From a virus: a stretch of DNA of 28,524 nt. Every line of letters begins with the position of its first letter. Position 1 is the stretch's first letter. Shown here piece by piece: positions 3,370 to 23,136 of this stretch. The DNA lies in the IMG/VR virus record IMGVR_UViG_3300047470_000526, positions 1-28,524 of that record; one strand, given 5' to 3'. The position numbers and the translations under genes were made by a program. The notes below the pieces were generated by a model that searched no databases, was not told the DNA's origin, and saw nothing but the letters and a program-made list of their open reading frames with translations.

Positions 3370-4089
3370 ATGGCAACTATTGCAGACACCACCTGCCTGG
3401 CGGCTCGCATCGAGGCAGCGATGAACAGCGGCGCCTACGACCCCTATAGGCCATCGAGTGCGCTTACCGAGTTCGTGGTCGTGCGCCATTTTGTGCGCGC
3501 GAATTTCGATCGCCATCACCGTGTTCGGGCGGAGCTGGCGCGTGTCAGGCGGCTCGCGGATAGGCTGGGTGGGTCGCCGTTCAACAAACACCGCCTCGAA
3601 CAAGTGAACGACTACGTCACCACCCTGAAGGAACTTTTGATCATGGTCCGGAAGGCCGAGGAGAGGCTAGGGCGTATTGTTATCGATATGGCGCCCCGCA
3701 TTGATGCGGAAACCACGATGGCGCAGCGCTTGGAGATCCTGAACTGCAATCTCGCGGACAGGAGTAAGTTGGATGAGTCCGACATCGGCCTGGTCGACCT
3801 GATCGGCGTCTACTGCGTCGAGGACTCGGCAGCGCACCGCGGCGACGAGTTCAACGACCGGCCGCTGCATGGCGCCGTGAACGCGGAAATTATTCGTGTG
3901 ATGTTCCGTACACCCGAGGGGCGCGCAGCATCGAAACCGATCTTCGACGCTGCGTTTGAGCCTGGCGGCATCCTGCATGGCGTGTCGACCTATTACCGGC
4001 AGCCTGATGGGACGATGAAGCGCAAGGCGCCATCGCTCGTTCTGCATGATGCAGCTGGCTCCCGCGTGATCGAGCGGACTCCAGCATGA
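3370..4089 (+). CDS. Unknown early phage protein
   Basis: A 239-residue protein between the Cro-like gene and the replication genes, where lambdoid phages carry cII-type or replication accessory genes. I do not recognise the family. Residues 1-110 are largely helical and basic (VRHFVRANFDRHHRVRAELA, then a leucine-rich VTTLKELLIMVRKAEERLGR). Residues 130-239 are more mixed, with ESDIGLVDLIGVYCVEDSAA. No membrane segment or clear HTH is visible. The start at 3370 has no strong ribosome site. Its stop overlaps the start of a 23-codon ORF as ATGA. Confidence 0.72.
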   Translation: MATIADTTCLAARIEAAMNSGAYDPYRPSSALTEFVVVRHFVRANFDRHHRVRAELARVRRLADRLGGSPFNKHRLEQVNDYVTTLKELLIMVRKAEERLGRIVIDMAPRIDAETTMAQRLEILNCNLADRSKLDESDIGLVDLIGVYCVEDSAAHRGDEFNDRPLHGAVNAEIIRVMFRTPEGRAASKPIFDAAFEPGGILHGVSTYYRQPDGTMKRKAPSLVLHDAAGSRVIERTPA

Positions 4090-4157
4090 GCGGCATGCGG
4101 CGCCGACCACAGGCGTTGTGCGCTAAGCCAGCAGGGGAAGGGGCGATCAGCGCATGA
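4086..4157 (+). CDS. 23-codon micro-ORF coupled at both ends
   Basis: A short open frame coding MSGMRRRPQALCAKPAGEGA plus ISA. Its start forms ATGA with the stop of the upstream gene (4086-4089), and its stop forms ATGA with the start of the O-like gene (4154-4157). Such exact double coupling suggests it is translated, at least to pass ribosomes along to the replication gene. The peptide is basic and not recognised. It is too short for routine gene callers. Confidence 0.5.
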   Translation: MSGMRRRPQALCAKPAGEGAISA

Positions 4158-6893: not shown

Positions 6894-7088
6894 ATGCAGC
6901 TGCAAACACGTACACGCCACCGGGGTGCTAACCGGTCAAGCTCCCTCATGGGGGCGCGAAGTGGGGCGGGCTTCGCCCCCGGCAGGGCGAACAACTTCCA
7001 CAGGAAGTGTAGTGAGTACACCGGTCCCGCCCGGTGGTGGTGGCTTCAGCTGGCGCTGGCGCTCGCACTCGCACAGAGGCTCCCATGA
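6894..7088 (+). CDS. Possible small protein ahead of the relaxase
   Basis: A 64-codon frame with AGGAG seven bases before its ATG and a stop that overlaps the relaxase start as ATGA (7085-7088). The product is basic at the start (MQLQTRTRHRGANRSSSLMG) and hydrophobic near the end (RWWWLQLALALALAQ). The DNA also contains the oriT candidate, so coding may be secondary. No family is recognised. The 240 bases before it (6651-6893) hold no gene I can support. Confidence 0.35.
   Translation: MQLQTRTRHRGANRSSSLMGARSGAGFAPGRANNFHRKCSEYTGPARWWWLQLALALALAQRLP
6994..7021 (+). other. oriT: Candidate oriT for the MobV relaxase
   Basis: ACTTCC/GGAAGT (6994-6999, 7003-7008) forms a small hairpin. It runs into a second one, GTGTA-GTGAG-TACAC (7007-7021), with 5-bp stem and 5-base loop. 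The pMV158 MobM site, as I recall it, has the same plan: AAGTATAGTGTG, nick, TTATAC. Here AAGTGTAGTGAG is followed by TACAC, so the nick is predicted between 7016 and 7017. It lies 64 bases before the relaxase gene on the same strand, as in MobV plasmids. Confidence 0.6.
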
Positions 7089-8155
7089 CCCAACCCCACT
7101 ACTGCATACTCCGCGCCAAGAAGCTGAAGTCGTTTGGCTCCATCGCTGGCTCGGCAAAGCACACGTTCCGCGAGATCCCGACCCCGAACGCGGACCCAGA
7201 CCGGACCCGCCTCAACAAGACCATAGGGGCGCAAGACTCGGCGGCCGTGTGTGCGGCGATCGAGGCCCGCCTGCCGGCGAAGCGGCGCAACGATGCCGTG
7301 CTGTGCATCGAGTACCTGATAACGGCGTCCCCGGAATGGTTCAAGACGGCTCCAACCGAGCAGCAAAACGGCTACTTTAAGGAGGCGGTGGCCTGGCTGC
7401 GACAGCGCCACGGCGCCGAGAACGTGGTTTGCCTGAACATGCAGCACGATGAGAAGTCGCCCCATCTGGTGGCCTACGTTGTCCCGCTGACCAAGGACGG
7501 CCGGCTGTCGGCGAAAGACTTCCTCGGCGGACGCCAAAAGCTCACAGCGATGCAAACGGAGTTCGCCAAGGTGGTGGGCGCACCCGCCGGCCTGCAGCGT
7601 GGCGTAGAGGGCTCGAAGGCGGTTCACACGACAGCGAAGCAGTACGCCGCAGCGATGCAGGAAAATCCGGCCTTAGCCCCGCCTGCGCCCCTTCCTGCGC
7701 CATCGATCGCGGACCGGCTCAGCGGGCGCTGGGCTGAAAAGCAAGCGCAACACCATCAGGAGCAGGTTGAGCACGCAGCCCTTGTCGAGAAGGCCCGGAA
7801 TGAGGCGCGGGTGGGCAGGCAGAACCGGCAGCGCCAGGCCGCGGCCCTGGAGAGGATGCGCGCTGAGATCGAGGAGGCGAAGCGCCACGCGGCAGAGGCG
7901 ACCCAGCTGCGAGGGGAGAAAGCGCGCCTAGAGCGGGAGCTGAGGGAGCAGCGCACGTACTTCCAGCGCCAGATCGACACCGTCAAGGCGGCACTAGCCA
8001 AGGCGCTGGACCAAGTAGAAGGACTGTTGCGGAGGAATCGGCTCTTGGAGGCAAGGGTGGCAAGCGCCGAGGCCGAGGCGGACGAATTGCGAGCAATATT
8101 GGCCCCGGACGAATCTCGGCCAGACCTTGTGCCGAGTGGCGCTCAGTGCATTTAA
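7085..8155 (+). CDS. mobV: MobV-type relaxase (Mob/Pre)
   Basis: A 356-residue DNA relaxase that would nick oriT and lead one strand during conjugative mobilisation. The ATG at 7085 fits the family start (MTQPHYCILRAKKLKSFGSI). Residues 19-29 (SIAGSAKHTFR) align with the MobM segment holding its nucleophilic His, here His25. DAVLCIEYLIT (70-80) and the metal region QHDEKSPHLVAYVVPL (120-135) follow. The usual HxDExxPHxH is altered: the first His is shifted by one and the last is Val. Residues 230-345 are a long charged coiled coil. No coupling protein or mating-pair genes are present, so transfer would need a helper. Confidence 0.85.
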   Translation: MTQPHYCILRAKKLKSFGSIAGSAKHTFREIPTPNADPDRTRLNKTIGAQDSAAVCAAIEARLPAKRRNDAVLCIEYLITASPEWFKTAPTEQQNGYFKEAVAWLRQRHGAENVVCLNMQHDEKSPHLVAYVVPLTKDGRLSAKDFLGGRQKLTAMQTEFAKVVGAPAGLQRGVEGSKAVHTTAKQYAAAMQENPALAPPAPLPAPSIADRLSGRWAEKQAQHHQEQVEHAALVEKARNEARVGRQNRQRQAAALERMRAEIEEAKRHAAEATQLRGEKARLERELREQRTYFQRQIDTVKAALAKALDQVEGLLRRNRLLEARVASAEAEADELRAILAPDESRPDLVPSGAQCI

Positions 8156-8216
8156 AAGGCTCCGAGTGCACTTAAGAGACATTTATTGCATGCCACTGCA
8201 CAAACATACAGTAGTT

Positions 8217-8225
8217 TGGTATAGT
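8217..8225 (+). promoter_or_regulatory. Extended -10 promoter before the RNA repeats
   Basis: TGGTATAGT is an extended -10 element; no good -35 is present. Start would be near 8232, before the three repeated RNA units. Just upstream, two direct repeats AGTGCA(T/C)TTAA(A/G)AG at the end of and after the relaxase gene may be binding sites. Confidence 0.4.
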
Positions 8226-8260
8226 TGGGCCATGGGGGTGCTTCGCTCGCCCAGAGAAAA

Positions 8261-8634
8261 GTAAGTACAGTCCCTCGGAAAAATGTAATGCGCGCTACGG
8301 CGCCACCATCACCCGAGGCAGTCGCAGCGCCCGCCACCCAGAGTGTCACTGCGCTCGCGCTGAAAGAGCAACACCACATTCCCTGGGCACTCCGCAGAGG
8401 ATCGCCGATAGCCTGGGCAGTAAAGACAGTCCCTCTTATTTCCGTAATGCGCGCGAAAGCGCCACCGCAGATAAAAGGCAGTCGAGCACCTCGCCCGCAA
8501 GACAGCCGGCGCTCGCCTGTGAAAAGTAGCATTTACAGTTCCCTCTTCGCTGCGTAAATGACGTGAGAGCGTCGCCGTAGGTTAGAGGCAGTCGAGCACC
8601 CGGCCTGCGTAGACCGCCGGCGCTCGACCAGAAA
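8261..8634 (+). repeat. Three-copy repeat, ~105 bases each
   Basis: Unit 1 is 8261-8364, unit 2 is 8420-8524 and unit 3 is 8526-8634. Shared blocks in order: GTAA..ACAGTCCCTC, about nine variable bases, GTAATGCGCGC, GCGCCACC, GGCAGTCG, GCGCTCG and GAAA. Units 2 and 3 are back to back; 55 bases separate units 1 and 2. Hairpin II in units 2 and 3 pairs CGAGC-ACC with GGC-GCTCG; in unit 1 CGCAGCGC pairs with GCGCTCGCG with one bulge. Confidence 0.7.
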
Positions 8635-8641
8635 AATACAA

Positions 8642-8665
8642 GCCGCCCTCCAGCGGCTTTTTTTT
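8642..8665 (+). terminator. Intrinsic terminator 1
   Basis: GCCGC (8642-8646) and GCGGC (8653-8657) followed by eight T. It closes the relaxase and RNA-repeat transcription unit. Confidence 0.8.
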
Positions 8666-8721
8666 ACGTCCGCGCACCCTTGCGGATGAGCAAACCAAAG
8701 CTATCCTTAAAGAAGCACCAG

Positions 8722-8744
8722 GCCGCCGAGAGCGGCTTTTTTTT
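8722..8744 (+). terminator. Intrinsic terminator 2
   Basis: GCCGC (8722-8726) and GCGGC (8732-8736) followed by eight T. The stem has the same sequence as terminator 1, which suggests duplication. Confidence 0.75.
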
Positions 8745-8769
8745 CGCATACACATTTTGAATTGAACGA

Positions 8770-8803
8770 GGGTCGATCCGCTTAGCGTGGGTCGGCCCTT
8801 TTT
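8770..8803 (+). terminator. Intrinsic terminator 3
   Basis: GGGTCG (8770-8775) pairs with CGGCCC (8793-8798), including one G-T pair, followed by five T. Weaker than its neighbours. Confidence 0.5.
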
Positions 8804-8812
8804 CGTTAACCA

Positions 8813-9474: not shown

Positions 9475-9731
9475 GCCAGGCTGTTATCGATGCAGCGATG
9501 CGCGCCTGCGCCACGCTCGACAGCGTGATTGAGTCCCTGTTTGAGGACGATGGCCACGCTGGCGCTGGCACCATGCCGGAGATCCGCGCCGACCTGTGCG
9601 AGGCCTACAACAGCCTCACAGATGCGCTATCGGCCGAGCTGGGACTCGACACCCGCCAGTTGCTGCGCGACGTCGCCGCGGCCGATATCGAGACCTGGCG
9701 TGCAATCCTTCGCGCAAAGGGGATCATGTGA
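9471..9731 (+). CDS. Small helical protein, unknown function
   Basis: An 86-residue acidic, mostly helical protein (MSQAVIDAAMRACATLDSVI, ADLCEAYNSLTDALSAELGL, TRQLLRDVAAADIETWRAIL). No family is recognised. It starts over the stop of the previous gene (ATGA) and ends over the GTG start of the DUF1376 gene. Conservation of this tight coupling suggests it works with its neighbours. Confidence 0.65.
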   Translation: MSQAVIDAAMRACATLDSVIESLFEDDGHAGAGTMPEIRADLCEAYNSLTDALSAELGLDTRQLLRDVAAADIETWRAILRAKGIM

Positions 9732-10186
9732 ACTTCTACAAACACTTCCTGGGCGACTACGCCCGCGCAACAGGCCACCTCTCCATGGTCGAGCATGGCG
9801 CCTACCGGCAGATGCTGGACCACTTCTACGGCGCCGGTCGCCCACTCCCCGCCAACAGGAAAGCCTTGTACCGCCTCCTTCGAGCCGAAACCGAGCTCGA
9901 GCGGCGTGCTGTCGACGAGGTGGCGCTGCGCTTCTGGCGCGCATTGCCACCCGACGTCGAACCACTGTATGAACTGCTGGACCTGCGCACCGAGGTTGAG
10001 CGCCGCGCGCTGTTGACCACGGTCTTTGAGTGGACCGAGGTTGGCGGCCTGATCAACATGCGCGCCCTGGGCGAGATCGTCAAGGCCAGGATCATCGCCG
10101 AGAAGAACAAACAGATCGCCATCGACAGGGAGCGGAAGAAGCGCACCACGCAGGGCCTGCAGGTCTACGCTGGAGGGCGATCCTGA
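9728..10186 (+). CDS. DUF1376 (YdaU-like) protein
   Basis: A 152-residue protein. The GTG at 9728 places the family hallmark at the very N-terminus (VNFYKHFLGDYARATGHLSM, then EHGAYRQMLDHFYGAGRPLP). A GTG start overlapping the stop of the preceding gene fits the operon style. DUF1376 proteins such as YdaU of the Rac prophage sit in phage replication regions and are often longer; here the C-terminal replication-type extension is missing after a basic tail (AIDRERKKRTTQ). It may act in replication, but this is inferred from family context only. Confidence 0.82.
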   Translation: MNFYKHFLGDYARATGHLSMVEHGAYRQMLDHFYGAGRPLPANRKALYRLLRAETELERRAVDEVALRFWRALPPDVEPLYELLDLRTEVERRALLTTVFEWTEVGGLINMRALGEIVKARIIAEKNKQIAIDRERKKRTTQGLQVYAGGRS

Positions 10187-10721: not shown

Positions 10722-11036
10722 ATGAAACTAACCACCCTCAAGCCCCGCCTGCAGGAAGTAGGCAACCGACTCCCCACTCTCAAGGTCAGCGCCGGCACCG
10801 TAGAGCGCAAGCGCGGCTCTGCTGGCGTAAAGGACCGTGAACGCATCCGGGCCCGAGATTACGGCCTGTGCCAGGCATGCCGACGAGAGGACAAGATCAG
10901 CATCGGCGTCGACGTCGACCACATTGTTGCGCTTGCAGATAGCGGCTCCGATCACGACGACAACAAGGAATTGTTGTGCGAGGAGCATCACCGGGCAAAG
11001 AGTACGGCCGAAGCGGCGCGCCGGGCTGCTGGCTAG
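10722..11036 (+). CDS. HNH endonuclease
   Basis: A 104-residue HNH nuclease. CQAC (residues about 48-51) and a later C-x2-H-H (LLCEEHHRAKS) give the zinc ligands, and DVDHIVAL contains the catalytic His; DDNKELLC completes the beta-beta-alpha-metal motif. Phage HNH proteins of this size usually lie next to the terminase genes and help cut packaging sites. Here no terminase follows; the next gene on that strand is the tape measure. The gene's last bases overlap the end of the convergent lipoprotein gene by four bases. It could be active but orphaned. Confidence 0.82.
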   Translation: MKLTTLKPRLQEVGNRLPTLKVSAGTVERKRGSAGVKDRERIRARDYGLCQACRREDKISIGVDVDHIVALADSGSDHDDNKELLCEEHHRAKSTAEAARRAAG

Positions 11037-11374
11037 TGCTTGTCGTGCCCTCGCTCGACCTGCTCGGCGATCTGTAGCGCCCGGGCGCAGTTGGCCTCAT
11101 CGCCAAAGTAGATAACCGCATCCTTCTCGCGGATGGACTGCGCGGCCGTGAAGGGCTTAGCCCCGGCGTAACCGCCGAACGAGTTCTTTGCATTGACCAT
11201 TCCGCACAGCACTGAGATCGAGCCATCGGTCGTTTTCTTCAGATCGAGCTGACTGAACTCGGCGGAGCTCGGGTCTTTCAACTCCTGTCGAACCTTGGTC
11301 AGGATCTCCTTCTCGGTCGAGTTGCACCCCGCGAGCATGGCAGCAAGGGCGAGAACTGCGGCAGTCATACGCAT
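11033..11374 (-). CDS. Small lipoprotein
   Basis: A 113-residue exported lipoprotein. The ATG at 11374 (GGAGG four to eight bases upstream) gives a clean signal peptide MRMTAAVLALAAMLAGCNS with lipobox LAGC; the longer frame to 11494 has no such signal. The mature part (ILTKVRQELKDPSSAEFSQL, then CGMVNAKNSFGGYAGAKPF) matches a widespread small periplasmic family of unknown function often encoded on mobile elements. It is transcribed against the surrounding phage genes and so may be a lysogenic-conversion type gene expressed from its own promoter. Confidence 0.78.
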   Translation of the reverse strand: MRMTAAVLALAAMLAGCNSTEKEILTKVRQELKDPSSAEFSQLDLKKTTDGSISVLCGMVNAKNSFGGYAGAKPFTAAQSIREKDAVIYFGDEANCARALQIAEQVERGHDKH

Positions 11375-11571
11375 GTTTCCTCCGGGTAAAGATTCGATTA
11401 TGCATGAGCCTGCCCGGCCTGCGGCAAGGCGAAGAGGGGAGGGGGGATGATTCTCCACAGCAATAGAAAAGTTGGACACCCCTTGTACTGCCATGCGTAT
11501 AAAAAATCGCCCCTGGAGAAAATGTTAATCAAATGGCCGAGCTATTAACCGACCACTCTTCATAGGAGAAC

Positions 11572-11594
11572 ATGTGAAAAACCGAACCATTTGA
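11572..11594 (+). other. ATG-TGA start-stop / six-codon leader
   Basis: A good ribosome site (TAGGAGAAC) leads to ATGTGA, a start codon followed at once by a stop. The overlapping GTG opens a six-codon frame (VKNRTI) ending at 11594. It lies just before a terminator. It may be a leader peptide site or the scar of a deleted tail gene. Confidence 0.3.
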
Positions 11595-11620
11595 AAGCGC
11601 AAAGCTGTTAAAGCACGTTA

Positions 11621-11653
11621 AAGCCGACTTCCTTAACAGGGGTCGGCTTTTTT
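11621..11653 (+). terminator. Intrinsic terminator upstream of the tape measure gene
   Basis: AAGCCGAC (11621-11628) pairs with GTCGGCTT (11642-11649), followed by TTTT. It sits between the ATG-TGA leader and the tape measure start, so tape measure expression must come from read-through or a promoter in the 65 bases after it. Confidence 0.78.
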
Positions 11654-11716
11654 ATTGGGAAATTCCCCAAAAAGGGGCTCTCGGCATGCCGGGAGTGAAC
11701 GAAAGAGAGGGCGACG

Positions 11717-14700
11717 ATGACTGATCGCCAAATTGGAATTGAGGTCACGGTCGACGCCAGCAATGCGCGGACCGGGATCAACCAGATCCGCCAGGAGGCT
11801 AACAACCTGGCGCGAGATGTTACCCAGGCCAGTGAACGAAGCGGGCGGAGCCTGGAAAACCTCGGCGGCGGTGCCCCGGCGGCCGCGCGCAACATCGACG
11901 GTGCCACGCGTTCAATCGTGCAATCGATTCAAAGGACGACAGCGGCAATGGAGGCTGGTGGGCGCCAGACGTCGACCTACTTCGAGCTGCTGGCCCGGCA
12001 GCGCGGCGCCGACGGCAATACGATCGCGCCGTACGTGGCGCAGTTGCGCGCGCTCGAGCAGCAGCAGGGGCGCGTAGGGATCTCGGCCGCCCAGACTGCA
12101 AACGCGATGCGCCAGCTGCCGGCACAACTAACCGACGTGATTGTCGGCTTGCAGGGGGGCCAAGCGCCCCTCACGGTGTTCCTGCAGCAGGGCGGGCAAA
12201 TCCGCGACGTCTTCGGCAGCGCTAGCGGCGCCCTTCGGGGTGTCGCCTCCTCGCTGGTCAATATGGTCAATCCGTACAGTATCGCGGCGGTCGCGGCGGC
12301 AGGCCTCGCGTATGCATATAACGAAGGGTCGAAAGAGGCAGACGCGTACAACCGCGCGCTGATCATGACCGGCAACGCCGCCGGCACCAGCGCCGGGCAA
12401 TTGGCCGACTACGCCCGCGAGATCGCCAGGGGGATCGGCACCCAATCGGCGGCCGCAGGCGCACTCGCGGCGCTGGCCGGTACTGGCGAAGTCTCGGCCA
12501 AAAACATGCAGCAGTTCGGCGCCGTCACTGTGGCGGCAAACAAGTACATCGGAATCAGCGTTCAGGACATGGCGAAGGACTTCGCCGACCTGGGCCGCAC
12601 GCCAGTCTCATCGCTCCTGAAGCTAGACGAGAGCTACCGATTCTTGACCAGCAGCGTCTATGAACAGGTGAAGGCGCTGCAGGACCAGGGCAAGAACGAC
12701 GAGGCCGCCGAGGTGGCGCAGAAGGCCTATGCATCGGCCTTTGCTGACCGTGCTGACCAAATGAAGGGCCAGCTCGGCACCATCGAGCGAGCCTGGATAG
12801 GCGCCAAGGATAGCGCTGCCTTGGCGTGGGACGCGTTCCTCGGCGTCGGACGAAAAGAAACCGCGAAGCAGGCGCTCGCCAAGATCCAAGAGCAGATCAA
12901 GCTCGCATCAGCGCCAGCACCTACCAGGGGAGGGGAGCGCGGGGACAATGCCGCAATGCGTCAGGCCGCGGCGGCGTCGAACCTGCCGGAGCTCTTGAAG
13001 CAGGAGAGGGAGGCGAAGTACCAAGTTGAAAAGGAGGAGTGGGATAACCAGCAGGCCGCGATCGCCGAAAGCCTGCGCCGCTCCAGCCTGGAGTGGGACA
13101 AGGTCATGGAAGGAACCATGTCCAAGGCCGCTCGGCTTAAGGCTGCGATCACCAGGGTGCAGAACCAAGGCGAGGCCGCCGGCGCGTCCGATGACGCCAT
13201 CAAGAAGGCGATCGCCAAGGTGCAACAGGACTTCGCCTCTCTCGATAATCCGCTGCTGGCCAAGCTCGAGGGGAATCGCACCGTTCAGCGCGAGGTGCTG
13301 GCGGGCCAATTGGCGGATCTGGAAACCTCCTACAAGCTGCAATTGGTCAGCCTGGGGACATACATCACCAGAAAGCGCGACCTACAGACCCAAGAGCTGG
13401 ATCTGGAAATCGACATCATCAGGCAGCGCGCCGCGGTCGACAAGGGCAAGGAAGATCAGTCGGCCTACCAGAAGGATGAGGCCGACCTGCGGGCGGCGAT
13501 GCAGCGCCGCGCGAACATCATCAGTGGCGCCAATAACGCCCTCAGCGAGGAGATTTTCGCGTCCAACAAACGGGCCTGGGAAGGGGCTGACGGCTACGCC
13601 AAGATCATGAAGGACTACGCCGACGCCCAGCAGAAGACGATCGATGCCGCGATCAAGGAGGTGGAGGCGAATGAGCGGCTCGCCCAAACCTACGGGATGA
13701 CCCGGAAGGCGCTTGCCGAGTTTGAGATCGCCCGCCTCGAGGCGCAGCTCGCGCAACATGGAGCGGGGGCGTTCTACCTCGATGAGATTGAAAGCCTCGA
13801 AAAACTGATCGCTGCGAAGAAGAAAGGCGCGGCGGCTCTGGGCCGGCTGGATGATCTAGACGCCGGCAAGAAGGCCACGGAGGAGCTCGATCGGCTTTTG
13901 GACCCTACCAGGGCGCAGTCGTTTGGCGACGCCTTGCGAACCGCCTTTGGGTCTGCTGGGGACTCGATCGCCAAGCTGACCGGATCGCTCCAGCAGTTTG
14001 GCATTAAGCAGGGTGAAATCGCCAAGGCCCGTGCTCTTGCCGACACCGAGCTCAAGGCCAGCGGCAATTACGAGAAGTACCTGGACCGTATCAGCAAGCT
14101 CAACGAGCGCAACACGAAGGAGCAGCTTGGGGGCTATGGCGACATGGCCGCCGCCGCGTCGTCGTTCTTCGGCGAGCACAGCCGCGGCTACCAAAGCCTG
14201 ATGGCGGTGTCGCAGGTGTTCCACGCTGCGGAGCTGGCGATGACAACCGCCGAGCTCGTGCCAAAGGCGATCAGTGCGGTGCTGACCCAAGGCGAGGGCG
14301 ATCCATACAGCGCGTTCGGCCGTATGGCAGCGATGGGCGCGCTTGTCGCAGGCCTGGGCGTGGCGATTGGTGGCATAGGTGGCGGAGGCAGCACGCTTGC
14401 CGCCGATAGGCAGAAGGCGGCCGGCGCCGGCTCTGTTTTCGGCGACAGTGACGCAAAGTCGGAATCGATCAAGCGCGCGCTCGAGGCGGTGGAGAGGAAC
14501 ACCTATCAGGATCTGGCGATCAACAGCAGCATGCTCATCGCCCTGCGTAGCATCGACACCAACATCAGCAGTTTTGCGAGCCAGCTGGTGGGCAGCACCG
14601 ACATTACCAACCCGAAGTTCTCTCTGAACACCAACAACGGCTTCGCCTCCACGGTTGGCACGCTGGGCCTGACCGCTGGCGGCGCTGCTCTGGGCGGCAT

Positions 14701-17026
14701 GGCGGGCGCTGGGCTCAGTGCATTCACCTCTCTTGGCGCGGTGGGTGGTCCTATCGGTATGGTTGCCGGCGCCATCGCGGGGGCCGTCCTCGGGAAGATC
14801 CCCGCTGTCGCAAACCTGATGACCTCGATCTTTGGCGGCAAGCAGAGCGTCGAAGATTCGGGCTTCGGGATGGATGCTGCAAGCCTGGCGTCGATCCTGG
14901 GCAGCGGAGCGCACGCCTACCAGTACGCGGACATCAAGACCTCTGGCGGGTGGTTTGGCAGCGCCAACCGCGACGAGAAGACCACCGCTCTGAGCGATTC
15001 TGCCAACCAGCAGTTCACGGCGATCATCACTTCGCTGGCGGACAGCGTGAAGACGGCGGGCAGCATGCTGGGACTCTCGGGCGACGATTTCACCAACAAG
15101 CTGAACGGCTTTGTTGTCGATATTGGGCATGTGAGCCTGAAAGACCTCAAGGGCGAGGAGCTGCAGAAGGCGCTGGAATCGGTGTTCTCGCGTCTGGGTG
15201 ATGAGATGGCACAGTCTGCTGTTGGCGGCCTGGCGCAGTTTGAGCAGGTTGGCGAGGGCTACCTTGAAACCCTGTCTCGAATCGCGGGCGAATATCAAAC
15301 CGTCGACGTCGTCTTCCAGTCCTTCGGCAAGACGTTCGGGGAGATGGGCCTTGCCTCGATCGGTGCGCGCGACCGGCTCATTCAAATGGTCGGCGGCCTG
15401 GACAAGTTCACCAGCCAGGGCGAGTTCTTCCTGCAGAACTTTTTCACCGAAAAGGAGCAGGCTGCGGCGCTCAAGGCCCGCATCGACCCAACCCTGGCGC
15501 AGTACGGCTTGTCGAGTGCAGGGGCGAACGCGGACAAGATGTTCCGTGACTTCATCGTCGGCCTCGATACCACAACCGAGGCTGGCGCTACGGCCTATAC
15601 CGTCCTGATGGGAATCGCGCCGGCGCTCAAGTCGGTGTTCGATGCCGGGAAGGATGCGCTGGACGAGCGGAAGGGCCTGCAGGACCAGCTCGACGAGCTG
15701 ACGATGTCTTCGACCCAGCTTCTGGCCAAGCAGCGTGACGCGCTCGATGAGAGCAACCGCGCGCTGTTCGACCAGGTGCAGGCCGTGAAGTCGCAGGCCG
15801 CCGCGATTGAGGCGATCAAGACCAGCGCCAGCACGCTTCTCAGCGGAGTAGATAGCGCTTACTCGGCGCTTCAAAAGGTGGTGGGCCGCGAAAGGACGGC
15901 AACCCAAAGCATCATCGACACCCATACCGAGGTGTTTAGCCGGCTGCAGTCTATGTCCCAGGCACTGCACAGCACCCTCGACAGCCTCAAGTCGCCCGAG
16001 CAAAAGCTGTACGAGCGAGCGGCGGCCCAGGCGGAGATCCGGGCCGATCTGGCGATCACCAAGGCCGGCGGCAAGCTGTCGGATGCGCAAGCCGAGTCGC
16101 TGAAAAAGGCGCTGGGCGTGGTGACGCAGGACGCATCCAGCCAGTTCAGCAGCTACACCGACTACATGCGCGACCTGTACCAGACGCAGGCCGACGTCGC
16201 TGGGCTGGCAGACATTACCGATGATTCGCTGTCGGTAGAGCAGGCGATTCTCGACCAGGCTAAGGAGCAGCTCAAGTCGCTCGACAACGTGCTGACCAGC
16301 GCGCAGACCCAAATTGACATCCTGAAGGGGATCGACACCAACGGGCTGACGCTGATTCAGGCAATGCAGGGCCTGAGCTCTGCAATCGTGGGCGCCCAGG
16401 GCAACCCCATTGTGGGGGCAACCAGCGCCATCAACAGTGCCTACCAGTCGGCCTTGGGGCGCGTGCCTGATGCCGGCGGCTTGGAGTATTGGCAGAACGT
16501 CGCCGCCGGCGGTACCTCGATCTCCGACATCATCTCCGGCATCAAGGGCTCGACCGAAGCCAGCCTCAACAGCCTGTATCAGAGCGTGCTGCACCGAGCC
16601 CCGGATGCCGCGGGCCTCCAATTCTGGGTGAACGCCTTCGGCCCAACGATGGACGAAAACGAAAAGGCGGACTGGCTCAAGGCGGCGCAAGCCGAGTTGA
16701 CCGGCAAGCTGCATCCGTTCGCGATCGGTACGAACTTCATCCCGCAGGACATGCCGGCGATGGTGCACAAGGGTGAGCGGATCATCCCGGCGGCTGACAA
16801 CCGGCTGCTGATGGCGACATTGGCGCGCGCCAGTTCTGGCAGCGGTGTCGACGTTAGCGAGTTGGTGGCGGAGGTCCGTGAGCTGCGGAGGGAGAACGCC
16901 GAGATGCGGCGCCAGCAGGAGGCCTACCTCTTGGCGATCACGAAGAACACCATGAACACCCATGACGTTCTCGACCAGCTTAGCGAAGGCGGGGCCGCAA
17001 TGCGGGTGAAGATGGAAACCGAGTAA
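11717..17026 (+). CDS. Tail tape measure protein with DUF4214 repeats
   Basis: A 1769-residue tail-length tape measure protein, by far the largest gene. The N-terminus has the lambda-H-like signature (MRQLPAQLTDVIVGLQGGQA, then PLTVFLQQGGQIRDVFG at about residues 137-167). Hydrophobic segments occur at about 177-202, 870-890 and 983-1028, and long charged coiled coils at 400-720 and 1330-1540. Residues about 1571-1640 hold two DUF4214 repeats (AYQSALGRVPDAGGLEYW, LYQSVLHRAPDAAGLQFW). Such proteins set tail length and exit with the DNA during injection. Size implies a long non-contractile or contractile tail. GAGAGGG precedes the ATG. No tail chaperone genes lie upstream. Confidence 0.93.
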   Translation: MTDRQIGIEVTVDASNARTGINQIRQEANNLARDVTQASERSGRSLENLGGGAPAAARNIDGATRSIVQSIQRTTAAMEAGGRQTSTYFELLARQRGADGNTIAPYVAQLRALEQQQGRVGISAAQTANAMRQLPAQLTDVIVGLQGGQAPLTVFLQQGGQIRDVFGSASGALRGVASSLVNMVNPYSIAAVAAAGLAYAYNEGSKEADAYNRALIMTGNAAGTSAGQLADYAREIARGIGTQSAAAGALAALAGTGEVSAKNMQQFGAVTVAANKYIGISVQDMAKDFADLGRTPVSSLLKLDESYRFLTSSVYEQVKALQDQGKNDEAAEVAQKAYASAFADRADQMKGQLGTIERAWIGAKDSAALAWDAFLGVGRKETAKQALAKIQEQIKLASAPAPTRGGERGDNAAMRQAAAASNLPELLKQEREAKYQVEKEEWDNQQAAIAESLRRSSLEWDKVMEGTMSKAARLKAAITRVQNQGEAAGASDDAIKKAIAKVQQDFASLDNPLLAKLEGNRTVQREVLAGQLADLETSYKLQLVSLGTYITRKRDLQTQELDLEIDIIRQRAAVDKGKEDQSAYQKDEADLRAAMQRRANIISGANNALSEEIFASNKRAWEGADGYAKIMKDYADAQQKTIDAAIKEVEANERLAQTYGMTRKALAEFEIARLEAQLAQHGAGAFYLDEIESLEKLIAAKKKGAAALGRLDDLDAGKKATEELDRLLDPTRAQSFGDALRTAFGSAGDSIAKLTGSLQQFGIKQGEIAKARALADTELKASGNYEKYLDRISKLNERNTKEQLGGYGDMAAAASSFFGEHSRGYQSLMAVSQVFHAAELAMTTAELVPKAISAVLTQGEGDPYSAFGRMAAMGALVAGLGVAIGGIGGGGSTLAADRQKAAGAGSVFGDSDAKSESIKRALEAVERNTYQDLAINSSMLIALRSIDTNISSFASQLVGSTDITNPKFSLNTNNGFASTVGTLGLTAGGAALGGMAGAGLSAFTSLGAVGGPIGMVAGAIAGAVLGKIPAVANLMTSIFGGKQSVEDSGFGMDAASLASILGSGAHAYQYADIKTSGGWFGSANRDEKTTALSDSANQQFTAIITSLADSVKTAGSMLGLSGDDFTNKLNGFVVDIGHVSLKDLKGEELQKALESVFSRLGDEMAQSAVGGLAQFEQVGEGYLETLSRIAGEYQTVDVVFQSFGKTFGEMGLASIGARDRLIQMVGGLDKFTSQGEFFLQNFFTEKEQAAALKARIDPTLAQYGLSSAGANADKMFRDFIVGLDTTTEAGATAYTVLMGIAPALKSVFDAGKDALDERKGLQDQLDELTMSSTQLLAKQRDALDESNRALFDQVQAVKSQAAAIEAIKTSASTLLSGVDSAYSALQKVVGRERTATQSIIDTHTEVFSRLQSMSQALHSTLDSLKSPEQKLYERAAAQAEIRADLAITKAGGKLSDAQAESLKKALGVVTQDASSQFSSYTDYMRDLYQTQADVAGLADITDDSLSVEQAILDQAKEQLKSLDNVLTSAQTQIDILKGIDTNGLTLIQAMQGLSSAIVGAQGNPIVGATSAINSAYQSALGRVPDAGGLEYWQNVAAGGTSISDIISGIKGSTEASLNSLYQSVLHRAPDAAGLQFWVNAFGPTMDENEKADWLKAAQAELTGKLHPFAIGTNFIPQDMPAMVHKGERIIPAADNRLLMATLARASSGSGVDVSELVAEVRELRRENAEMRRQQEAYLLAITKNTMNTHDVLDQLSEGGAAMRVKMETE

Positions 17027-21731: not shown

Positions 21732-22226
21732 CTACTTCAGCGGCCAGAACCATACTTTCCGAGACGACCAGTAGCAGCCGGTCGCAGTACCATCAATCTC
21801 ATGTCCACAGCGGATGTATTTCCCCCATCGGTCCATTGAGACGATGGCGATGTGCCCTTGGGGGTTATTGTCCCCATAGATGCTGAAAAAGGACACGATC
21901 CCATGCCGGGCCTCGATCGCCTTCTCAGCCTCAAGCCCGCTCTTATACTCCTCGGGCTTGCCGATGTGGCGGACCAACCAGTTGCTCAGCCGGCGCTGCC
22001 CGGTTTCGATCATGCGGCCCTTGTACTTCCCGGCCTTGATGGGATAGGTGCCGGGGTTTGGGAAGCCGGCGCCGAGCAGCGCAAGGCTCATGCGGATCGC
22101 GCATGTGTTATAGAAGCCCGGGTCTGAGATGTTTTCAGGATGCCCGATCCACTGATATAACTCGTCACGATCGACGCTGTCTGGGTCGGGGAAGTGCATC
22201 CTGAGGGTCGCATACGGGGCCTTCAT
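21732..22226 (-). CDS. tae4: Tae4-family type VI amidase effector
   Basis: A 164-residue peptidoglycan amidase of the Tae4 type. Catalytic Cys42 lies in FYNTCAIRMSLALLGAG, the typical N-terminal active-site helix, and His125 in PQGHIAIVS. Tae4 enzymes cut the peptide bond between D-Glu and mDAP in the periplasm of rival cells after injection. The ATG at 22226 (GGAGG upstream) overlaps the stop of the immunity gene by four bases. Unlike most pairs, the effector is the last gene, after its immunity gene. Length and catalytic residues look intact. Confidence 0.88.
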   Translation of the reverse strand: MKAPYATLRMHFPDPDSVDRDELYQWIGHPENISDPGFYNTCAIRMSLALLGAGFPNPGTYPIKAGKYKGRMIETGQRRLSNWLVRHIGKPEEYKSGLEAEKAIEARHGIVSFFSIYGDNNPQGHIAIVSMDRWGKYIRCGHEIDGTATGCYWSSRKVWFWPLK

Positions 22227-22645
22227 CGCGACCTCCGCTGAACAGCCGCGCACGGCCATTTCGCCCGCCAGACTTCAACGATGAGGTCGGCTGCGTTCCG
22301 CTTGAGCTGGGCGTCAGACATCCGCTGCAGCGAGTGCCGCGCGTCGGCCACTAGCTCGTCCGCCAGGGGCTTGTACTGTTTGCTCCAGCACCAATCCTTA
22401 CCCTCTGTCGCGTCGTGCACGCCCTGAATGAAACCATGGACGAGCTCCCCATTCGACATGTCAATGTATTCAGCTGCGATGGCGCGGGTGCGAAAAGGGC
22501 CGTCCGGCGCCCACCTCACGGTAGACGGGTCGGTATTCCCCATTAGCTTGACCAGACGCTCGCCGGTCATCCAGGGGGTAGTGGCAGCCGGCTGTGCGAG
22601 GCATGGCGCGCCGAGCACCAGGCCTAGCAGAATAAGGGTGCGCAT
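22223..22645 (-). CDS. tai4: Rap1a/Tai-family immunity protein
   Basis: A 140-residue periplasmic protein. Residues 1-18 are a signal peptide (MRTLILLGLVLGAPCLAQPA). The Rap1a/Tai fold shows as AAEYIDMSNGELVHGFIQGV, Cys86 and Cys132 (a likely disulfide) and PLADELVADARHSLQRMS. Such proteins bind and block Tae4 in the cell's own periplasm. The start at 22645 is the last base of the hcp stop region, so hcp, immunity and effector are translated in one run. Cell protection from the adjacent effector is the obvious role. Confidence 0.83.
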   Translation of the reverse strand: MRTLILLGLVLGAPCLAQPAATTPWMTGERLVKLMGNTDPSTVRWAPDGPFRTRAIAAEYIDMSNGELVHGFIQGVHDATEGKDWCWSKQYKPLADELVADARHSLQRMSDAQLKRNAADLIVEVWRAKWPCAAVQRRSR

Positions 22646-23136
22646 TATGCGAGCCTGTTCGTGGCCAAATCCCACCCGCCAGTCGTGTTGCCACTGCTGC
22701 CGCCGCCAATCTTCTGCTGGGTGTATTTCCACCTCACCTTGGAGAATTTCAGGCCCAAGTGCTCACCAGGAATGTCCCCGCCTGCGAAGCTGGGCGCCAC
22801 CTGTGCGATCAGGACATTCTCGAGTTCGACTTCAAAGTACTTGATCGGCTCGCCGTTACCGTCGGCGCGCATCATTTCCAGCTTGGCCTTTGGGATGGTC
22901 TTGCCGCAAGCGCAGAGTTGGGCCAGCATGGGCGAGGACATGTCAACCAGCTTGCTAACGCTGATCTCGCTGAGCTCGGCGCGCTCGGCAGTGTGGCCAC
23001 CGCCGGTCGAGGCCGTCGCGCTTTTAGGTTGATGTATGTTCCAACTGATCGACGTGCACTCGATCCAGCCGGTGTGGCGCGAGTCCGCTGATTCGCCCTT
23101 GATGCCGTCCAGTTGCAGGTAATAGTCCGCTGCCAT
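22645..23136 (-). CDS. hcp: Hcp, type VI secretion tube protein
   Basis: A 163-residue Hcp1-family protein. Hallmarks: MAADYYLQLDGIKGESADS, W.ECTSISWNI, the TASTGGGHTAERAELSEISV loop with SKLVDMSSPMLAQLCACG, and a late KFSKVRWKY strand. Hcp forms the hexameric inner tube and carries small effectors inside. GGAGAG precedes the ATG. No other type VI structural gene is in the window, so it must rely on a host machine and probably chaperones the Tae4 effector encoded downstream. There is no C-terminal toxin extension. Confidence 0.94.
   Translation of the reverse strand: MAADYYLQLDGIKGESADSRHTGWIECTSISWNIHQPKSATASTGGGHTAERAELSEISVSKLVDMSSPMLAQLCACGKTIPKAKLEMMRADGNGEPIKYFEVELENVLIAQVAPSFAGGDIPGEHLGLKFSKVRWKYTQQKIGGGSSGNTTGGWDLATNRLA

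Follow-up and report, generated by a model that had tools for sequence, protein, structure and literature searches.

Two-hairpin RNA family in the predicted leaders of phage late transcripts, with a diverged three-copy array in one viral record

In this work we have investigated a tandem array of structured RNA in the viral record IMGVR_UViG_3300047470_000526, of which the stretch from position 1 to 28,524 (28,524 nt) was analysed and is called the window here. The array consists of three diverged units of ~100 nt within 8267-8636, and the unit is an RNA family with covarying stems which is missing from Rfam 15 and whose two-hairpin structure is under selection. Judged by what flanks it in homologous phages, the unit is the predicted leader of a late transcript resembling that of lambda pR'. 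We give about even chances to the possibility that it is a cis-acting antitermination element at this late promoter, working like the put RNA of phage HK022 without being homologous to it.

The three units fold into the same two hairpins. Hairpin 1 is built of a lower stem, an internal loop containing GUAA and, at the apex, a stem of 4-5 bp capped by a tetraloop; the apical hairpins of units 1, 2 and 3 are GCGC-UACG-GCGC, GCGC-GAAA-GCGC and GACGU-GAGA-GCGUC, just as the original prediction, which was made from the sequence alone, had described them. According to the repeat finder, pairs of units are 72-75% identical, and their spacing is uneven (159 and 109 nt). The folding energy of the units is unremarkable, ranking 32-44 of 259 110-mers of the G+C-rich window, and because it is not distinctive by itself the case for a structured RNA rests on homologues with compensating changes. 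A pattern for hairpin 2 led to 14 viral contigs with a single unit each, homologous to the three in the window (E 1e-9 to 1e-13 in nhmmer, the profile being made from the window units alone). The covariance model R1, built from these contigs together with the window units (16 training sequences), added more distant relatives; as the three units of the window are among those sequences, their own R1 scores in Table 1 are partly given by construction. The pattern GTAANGYGCGCN{3,4}GCGCCAMC matched 107 stretches in viral contigs and 32 of 394 Massilia-family genomes, of which ~20 were real on inspection (the rest were coding sequence or not fetched), and a 250-genome sample of the order gave one match, already within the Massilia-family sample. 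Loci collected in this way have the GUAA/GCGCC letters fixed by the pattern; the 14 contigs found through hairpin 2 are free of that constraint and agree with them. A lack of homologues with compensating changes had been set as a refuting test; instead, ~123 further loci turned up in viral contigs and genomes. Where the host genome is named, it is Massilia or Duganella. Other searches gave less. The first, looser pattern scans of viral contigs returned coding sequence or chance matches only, BLAST of the array region against 72,556 plasmids, or of this region and three homologues against 50,697 phage records, found nothing relevant, and in Rfam 15 the unit has only weak sub-threshold matches and none above any gathering score. 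The relatives matched only tRNAs above the gathering cut-off, so the suggestion that the RNA might be undescribed has stood.

The stem bases do change together, as had been noticed in the window alone. When the homologues of group B are aligned with the window units, 98.5% of the pair cells are paired and 17 double changes are seen vs 4.3 from shuffles, while partners slid by 1-3 columns pair in just 33-46%. Group C alone is less variable, with 94.8% paired and 5 double changes against 1.5 expected. Many fully compensated forms of the lower stem of hairpin 1 are seen across groups, such as CCTCG/CGAGG, TTCCGG/CCGGAA, TTTCGG/CCGAAA, TCCCGG/CCGGGA, CCTCT/AGAGG and CCAATC/GGTTGG, a result that is slightly selected, as only loci with at least 5 bp in this stem were retained (124 of 134). 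The apical loop varies among UUCG, UACG, GAAA, GCAA and others; of 123 loci, 32 have UNCG and 24 GNRA, and many of the rest have triloops. An outer closing stem, which makes a three-way junction, is clear in a subset belonging mostly to group D (at least 7 bp in 20 of 88 loci vs 5.8 expected). GUAA and GCGCC are nearly invariant though the surrounding stems differ between groups. Could the RNA be a 5' structure that merely stabilises or insulates the late mRNA and has no effect on transcription? Hairpins at the 5' end are common stabilisers of mRNA, but the specific internal-loop letters are kept over groups with wholly different stems, which is beyond a stabiliser's need, and we consider this account very improbable. 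A protein-coding reading can be discarded. It had been stated that the array holds no protein frame, which is not literally so, since open frames of 110 aa (+) and 126 aa (-) overlap it; neither has a Pfam or PADLOC match, and homologues of the unit vary by 1-nt indels in the loops, so the stretch is taken to be non-coding.

The position of the unit in the homologous phages is equally constant. In nearly every locus (119 of 123) the GTAA motif is preceded, at a distance of 23-36 nt, by a -10-like hexamer, which places the start of the unit near +1, within ~25 nt of the promoter, and a conserved promoter spacer was noticed among these loci. In all of the 101 loci that have 1 kb or more of upstream sequence, the unit directly follows a gene of one ~180-aa protein family, most members having a CxxC..CxxC zinc finger. 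From the end of this gene to the GTAA motif the usual distance is 70-90 nt, or else a few hundred. Compared with the PDB, the AlphaFold model of the protein comes closest to lambda Q as seen in the Q-loading complex (7ubn_Q, with probability 1.00 and E 0.011; the next hit has E 0.9), and we call the family Q-like. Against the same phage records this protein gave no match. Downstream of the unit follow HNH (70 of 99 loci) and TerL (33 of 47), and a terminator-like hairpin is found within 260 nt after it in 86 of 98 loci. Because a promoter-like site, the Q-like gene, terminators and late genes flank the unit, it would be a late-transcript leader.

The frequent terminator soon past the unit would also suit a trans-acting small RNA, which is the main rival of antitermination. 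The leader would stop at the terminator, and an RNA of ~100 nt (~430 nt in the window) would regulate host or phage RNAs or titrate a host protein, three copies making a stronger sponge. Multiplied binding units are typical of sponges, and the prophage RNA IsrK of Gifsy-1, described as both small RNA and mRNA (PMC4825925), has been counted in favour of such a role. However, no locus was found in which the unit stands apart from the Q-like gene and the late region, the window excepted as regards Q; the conserved letters lie in structured internal loops (GUAAUG / GCGCCACC) and not in an unpaired seed; and tandem copies occur in the window only, every other locus having a single unit. A trans-acting role thus appears rather unlikely to us. 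The constant company of the Q-like gene, and the invariant loop nucleotides which suggest specific recognition, might instead point to a nut-like site on the nascent RNA at which the Q-like protein, or some other protein of the phage or host, binds or loads; the site would then work only when its protein is present. Lambda Q is known to bind DNA near the promoter, not RNA, and the window keeps three well-paired units though no Q-like gene was found there; we judge a loading site unlikely.

Antitermination, by contrast with the other two functions offered by the original prediction, plasmid-like control and a protein sponge, fits best by position, because the unit lies at a late promoter with a Q-like gene and terminators. 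In the put RNA of HK022, a two-hairpin structure just after the promoter acts in antitermination (PMC9378689). The putL and putR sites resemble the unit in having ~70-100 nt, two stem-loops with internal loops and a place directly after a phage promoter and before terminators. Antitermination by put is protein-free and goes through the beta' zinc-binding domain of the polymerase. They belong to the early promoters PL and PR, whereas the unit is located between the Q-like gene and the HNH/terminase genes of Massilia-family prophages. Homology and location both rule out membership in the put family, and the comparison would concern the likely way of working, not descent. The region of lambda pR' (6S RNA region) and Q offers a parallel in arrangement: a Q-fold protein upstream, a promoter just after its gene, a short leader, a terminator and then late genes; in lambda the region also has a Q-binding element and a sigma pause close to the promoter. 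The homologous loci share the order of genes and sites; the window has a terminator soon after its promoter and late genes further on, but no Q-like gene was found in it. Unlike in lambda, the leader RNA is strongly conserved here, and the window has three copies of it but lacks Q; to our knowledge the lambda leader does not require a conserved structured RNA. Tandem structured RNA repeats before a terminator are also a feature of the antitoxin arrays of type III toxin-antitoxin systems (ToxI, TenpI, CptI). The repeats of these antitoxins usually have a few tens of nt, whereas our units have ~100 nt and their homologues are single-copy. Such a system was ruled out, as the terminator is followed by genes for AlpA, a winged HTH protein and DUF1376 and by no gene for a ToxN, TenpN or CptN endoribonuclease toxin.

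If antitermination is the function, transcription in these temperate phages would start at the pR'-like promoter that follows closely on the Q-like gene, and the unit would fold while emerging from RNA polymerase. The folded unit would bind the polymerase during elongation, either by itself or jointly with Q, whereupon the polymerase would ignore the terminators so that the late genes are expressed. In the window, the short leader element described below and the three diverged units would act in series before the tandem terminators, and perhaps the array has assumed the job of Q, because the Q-like gene is missing there. A wider claim, that the RNA represents a new class of antiterminator at late promoters, widespread in Massilia-family prophages, and that three units with the short leader replace Q in the window to give protein-free late control, seems doubtful to us. 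Few phages, namely HK022 and its relatives, are known to have RNA antiterminators that act on RNA polymerase with no protein dedicated to the task, and there they belong to early promoters. If the proposal were true, a structured nascent RNA, linked with lambda-Q-like genes in more than 100 prophages, would contribute to late control as well, and the window would be a natural three-copy case lacking Q for a direct test of RNA-only antitermination. Whatever its function, the unit defines an undescribed RNA family.

Several observations weigh against antitermination by the unit. Many phages of the group have the short leader only, without the ~100-nt unit. R1, applied unfiltered to the complete HK022 record, gave no significant match and none at the early promoters (the best, E 0.031 at 3999-4104, lies across the gp4/gp5 boundary). 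Where the Q-like protein is present, a lambda-type Q alone would suffice and the role of the RNA could differ. The likeness to Q itself depends on the E value of 0.011 and a model of mean pLDDT 70.8, and hhalign of the protein with lambda Q covers the zinc finger only. Lastly, the array may be a relic, because head and terminase genes appear to be missing from the window record.

Table 1. Features of the window around the RNA array
Feature	Positions	Strand	Description	Evidence
MobV/Mob_Pre relaxase gene	7085-8155	+		PF01076 E 1.4e-38; MobV NF041497 E 5.9e-46
LexA-box-like site	8196-8211	.	CTGCACAAACATACAG, one mismatch to CTGT-N8-ACAG, overlaps -35	site scan
Extended -10 promoter	8197-8225	+	TGCACA-17 nt-TATAGT, TG before -10	promoter-like site, 0.3 expected per shuffle
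Short-leader element	8242-8261	+	TTCGCTCGCCCAGAGAAAAG, precedes unit 1	same as in phages whose leader is this hairpin and a terminator
Unit 1	8267-8367	+	hairpin 1 8273-8318, UACG loop; hairpin 2 8319-8362	R1 66.8 bits, E 1.3e-15; fold
Unit 2	8426-8525	+	hairpin 1 8432-8478, GAAA loop; hairpin 2 8479-8519	R1 88.2 bits, E 1.3e-21; fold
Unit 3	8535-8636	+	hairpin 1 8542-8588, GAGA loop; hairpin 2 8591-8628	R1 68.6 bits, E 4.1e-16; fold
Intrinsic terminator	8640-8667	+	AAGCCGC..GCGGCTT + T8	terminator scan
Second intrinsic terminator	8720-8746	+		terminator scan
Third terminator-like hairpin	8768-8805	+		terminator scan
HNH endonuclease	10722-11036	+		phrog_589 E 1.1e-18

The promoter and terminator expected on either side of the array were both found (Table 1), the terminator scan giving 6 hits vs 1.2 expected, and from the extended -10 promoter we infer a transcription start at ~8232. 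A LexA box with at most one mismatch occurs in ~4% of shuffled upstream regions, so the site in the window is weak evidence taken alone. Ahead of the RNA, 39 of the 96 relatives carry an exact CTGT-N8-ACAG box (0.3 expected); in groups C and D such a box is usual. Because this box is the operator carried by the lexA genes of the hosts (6 of 6 genomes), the late promoters which have it are probably SOS-controlled as well.

How did the array arise? Hairpin 1 of unit 1 is 96% identical to that of one homologous locus (L363), and units 2 and 3 cluster with two others (L385 and L407, support 96/98), on long branches. Recent tandem duplication is ruled out as a simple account, and because the units fall in different sublineages the array looks assembled or long diverged, not freshly duplicated.

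The relaxase as bait found no relatives of the window, and DnaB was used instead. In the relatives obtained in this way, the equivalent place holds the motif TTCGCNCGYCCRGARAAAAG between a promoter and a terminator, and the unit is absent. This motif, which the window has at 8242-8261, occurs between promoter-like sequence and a terminator-like hairpin in 38 viral contigs, and also in genomes named Massilia and Duganella. In 34 of these 38 short-leader phages (L201-L238) another protein family of ~142 aa is encoded near the promoter. It has no Pfam match, its matches to sigma region 4 folds are weak and non-significant, and it is possibly a second kind of late regulator. In phages with the unit, a second conserved element, roughly GCYCACYTNGCAGATAGCCCTGGRGC, follows it in 45 of 91 loci, ~130 nt past the GTAA motif (L338, L378 and others), and a similar motif is found in 15 of the 38 short-leader loci; it is probably another leader hairpin. 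The stretch at 8375-8415 of the window, between units 1 and 2, may be related to it. Four loci (L162 at 9650-9800, L163, L166 and L171) share a conserved non-coding stretch, GAGCGCACCCCAGGCGCGCGACGCCGCCGGACGCTGTAACCGGC, between the first and second terminators.

The gene before the array is a relaxase gene, as originally proposed, of the MobV type, and it occupies the place of the Q-like gene in the homologues; the window is the sole locus found in which no Q-like protein was detected. The idea of a plasmid-like control RNA (Mob oriT or plasmid control) did not hold, as the relaxase is peculiar to the window and no homologue of the unit was seen beside one. This MobV plasmid relaxase lies inside a phage replication region, and its best matches in phage records stay below 45% identity and span no more than about half of the protein. 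Between the array and the HNH gene lies the AlpA-HTH (winged HTH)-DUF1376 block. The HNH protein belongs to the same cluster as that of the homologous loci, where this family marks the start of the late region. In the stretch 10722-17026, which includes both genes, the tape measure gene starts <700 bases from HNH, and terminase, portal and capsid genes were not seen between them; this could mean that the element is defective, has a tail only or was misassembled. Further on, at 21732-23136 (-), the viral record carries type VI secretion genes, for Hcp (PF05638) and a Tae4 amidase effector (PF14113).
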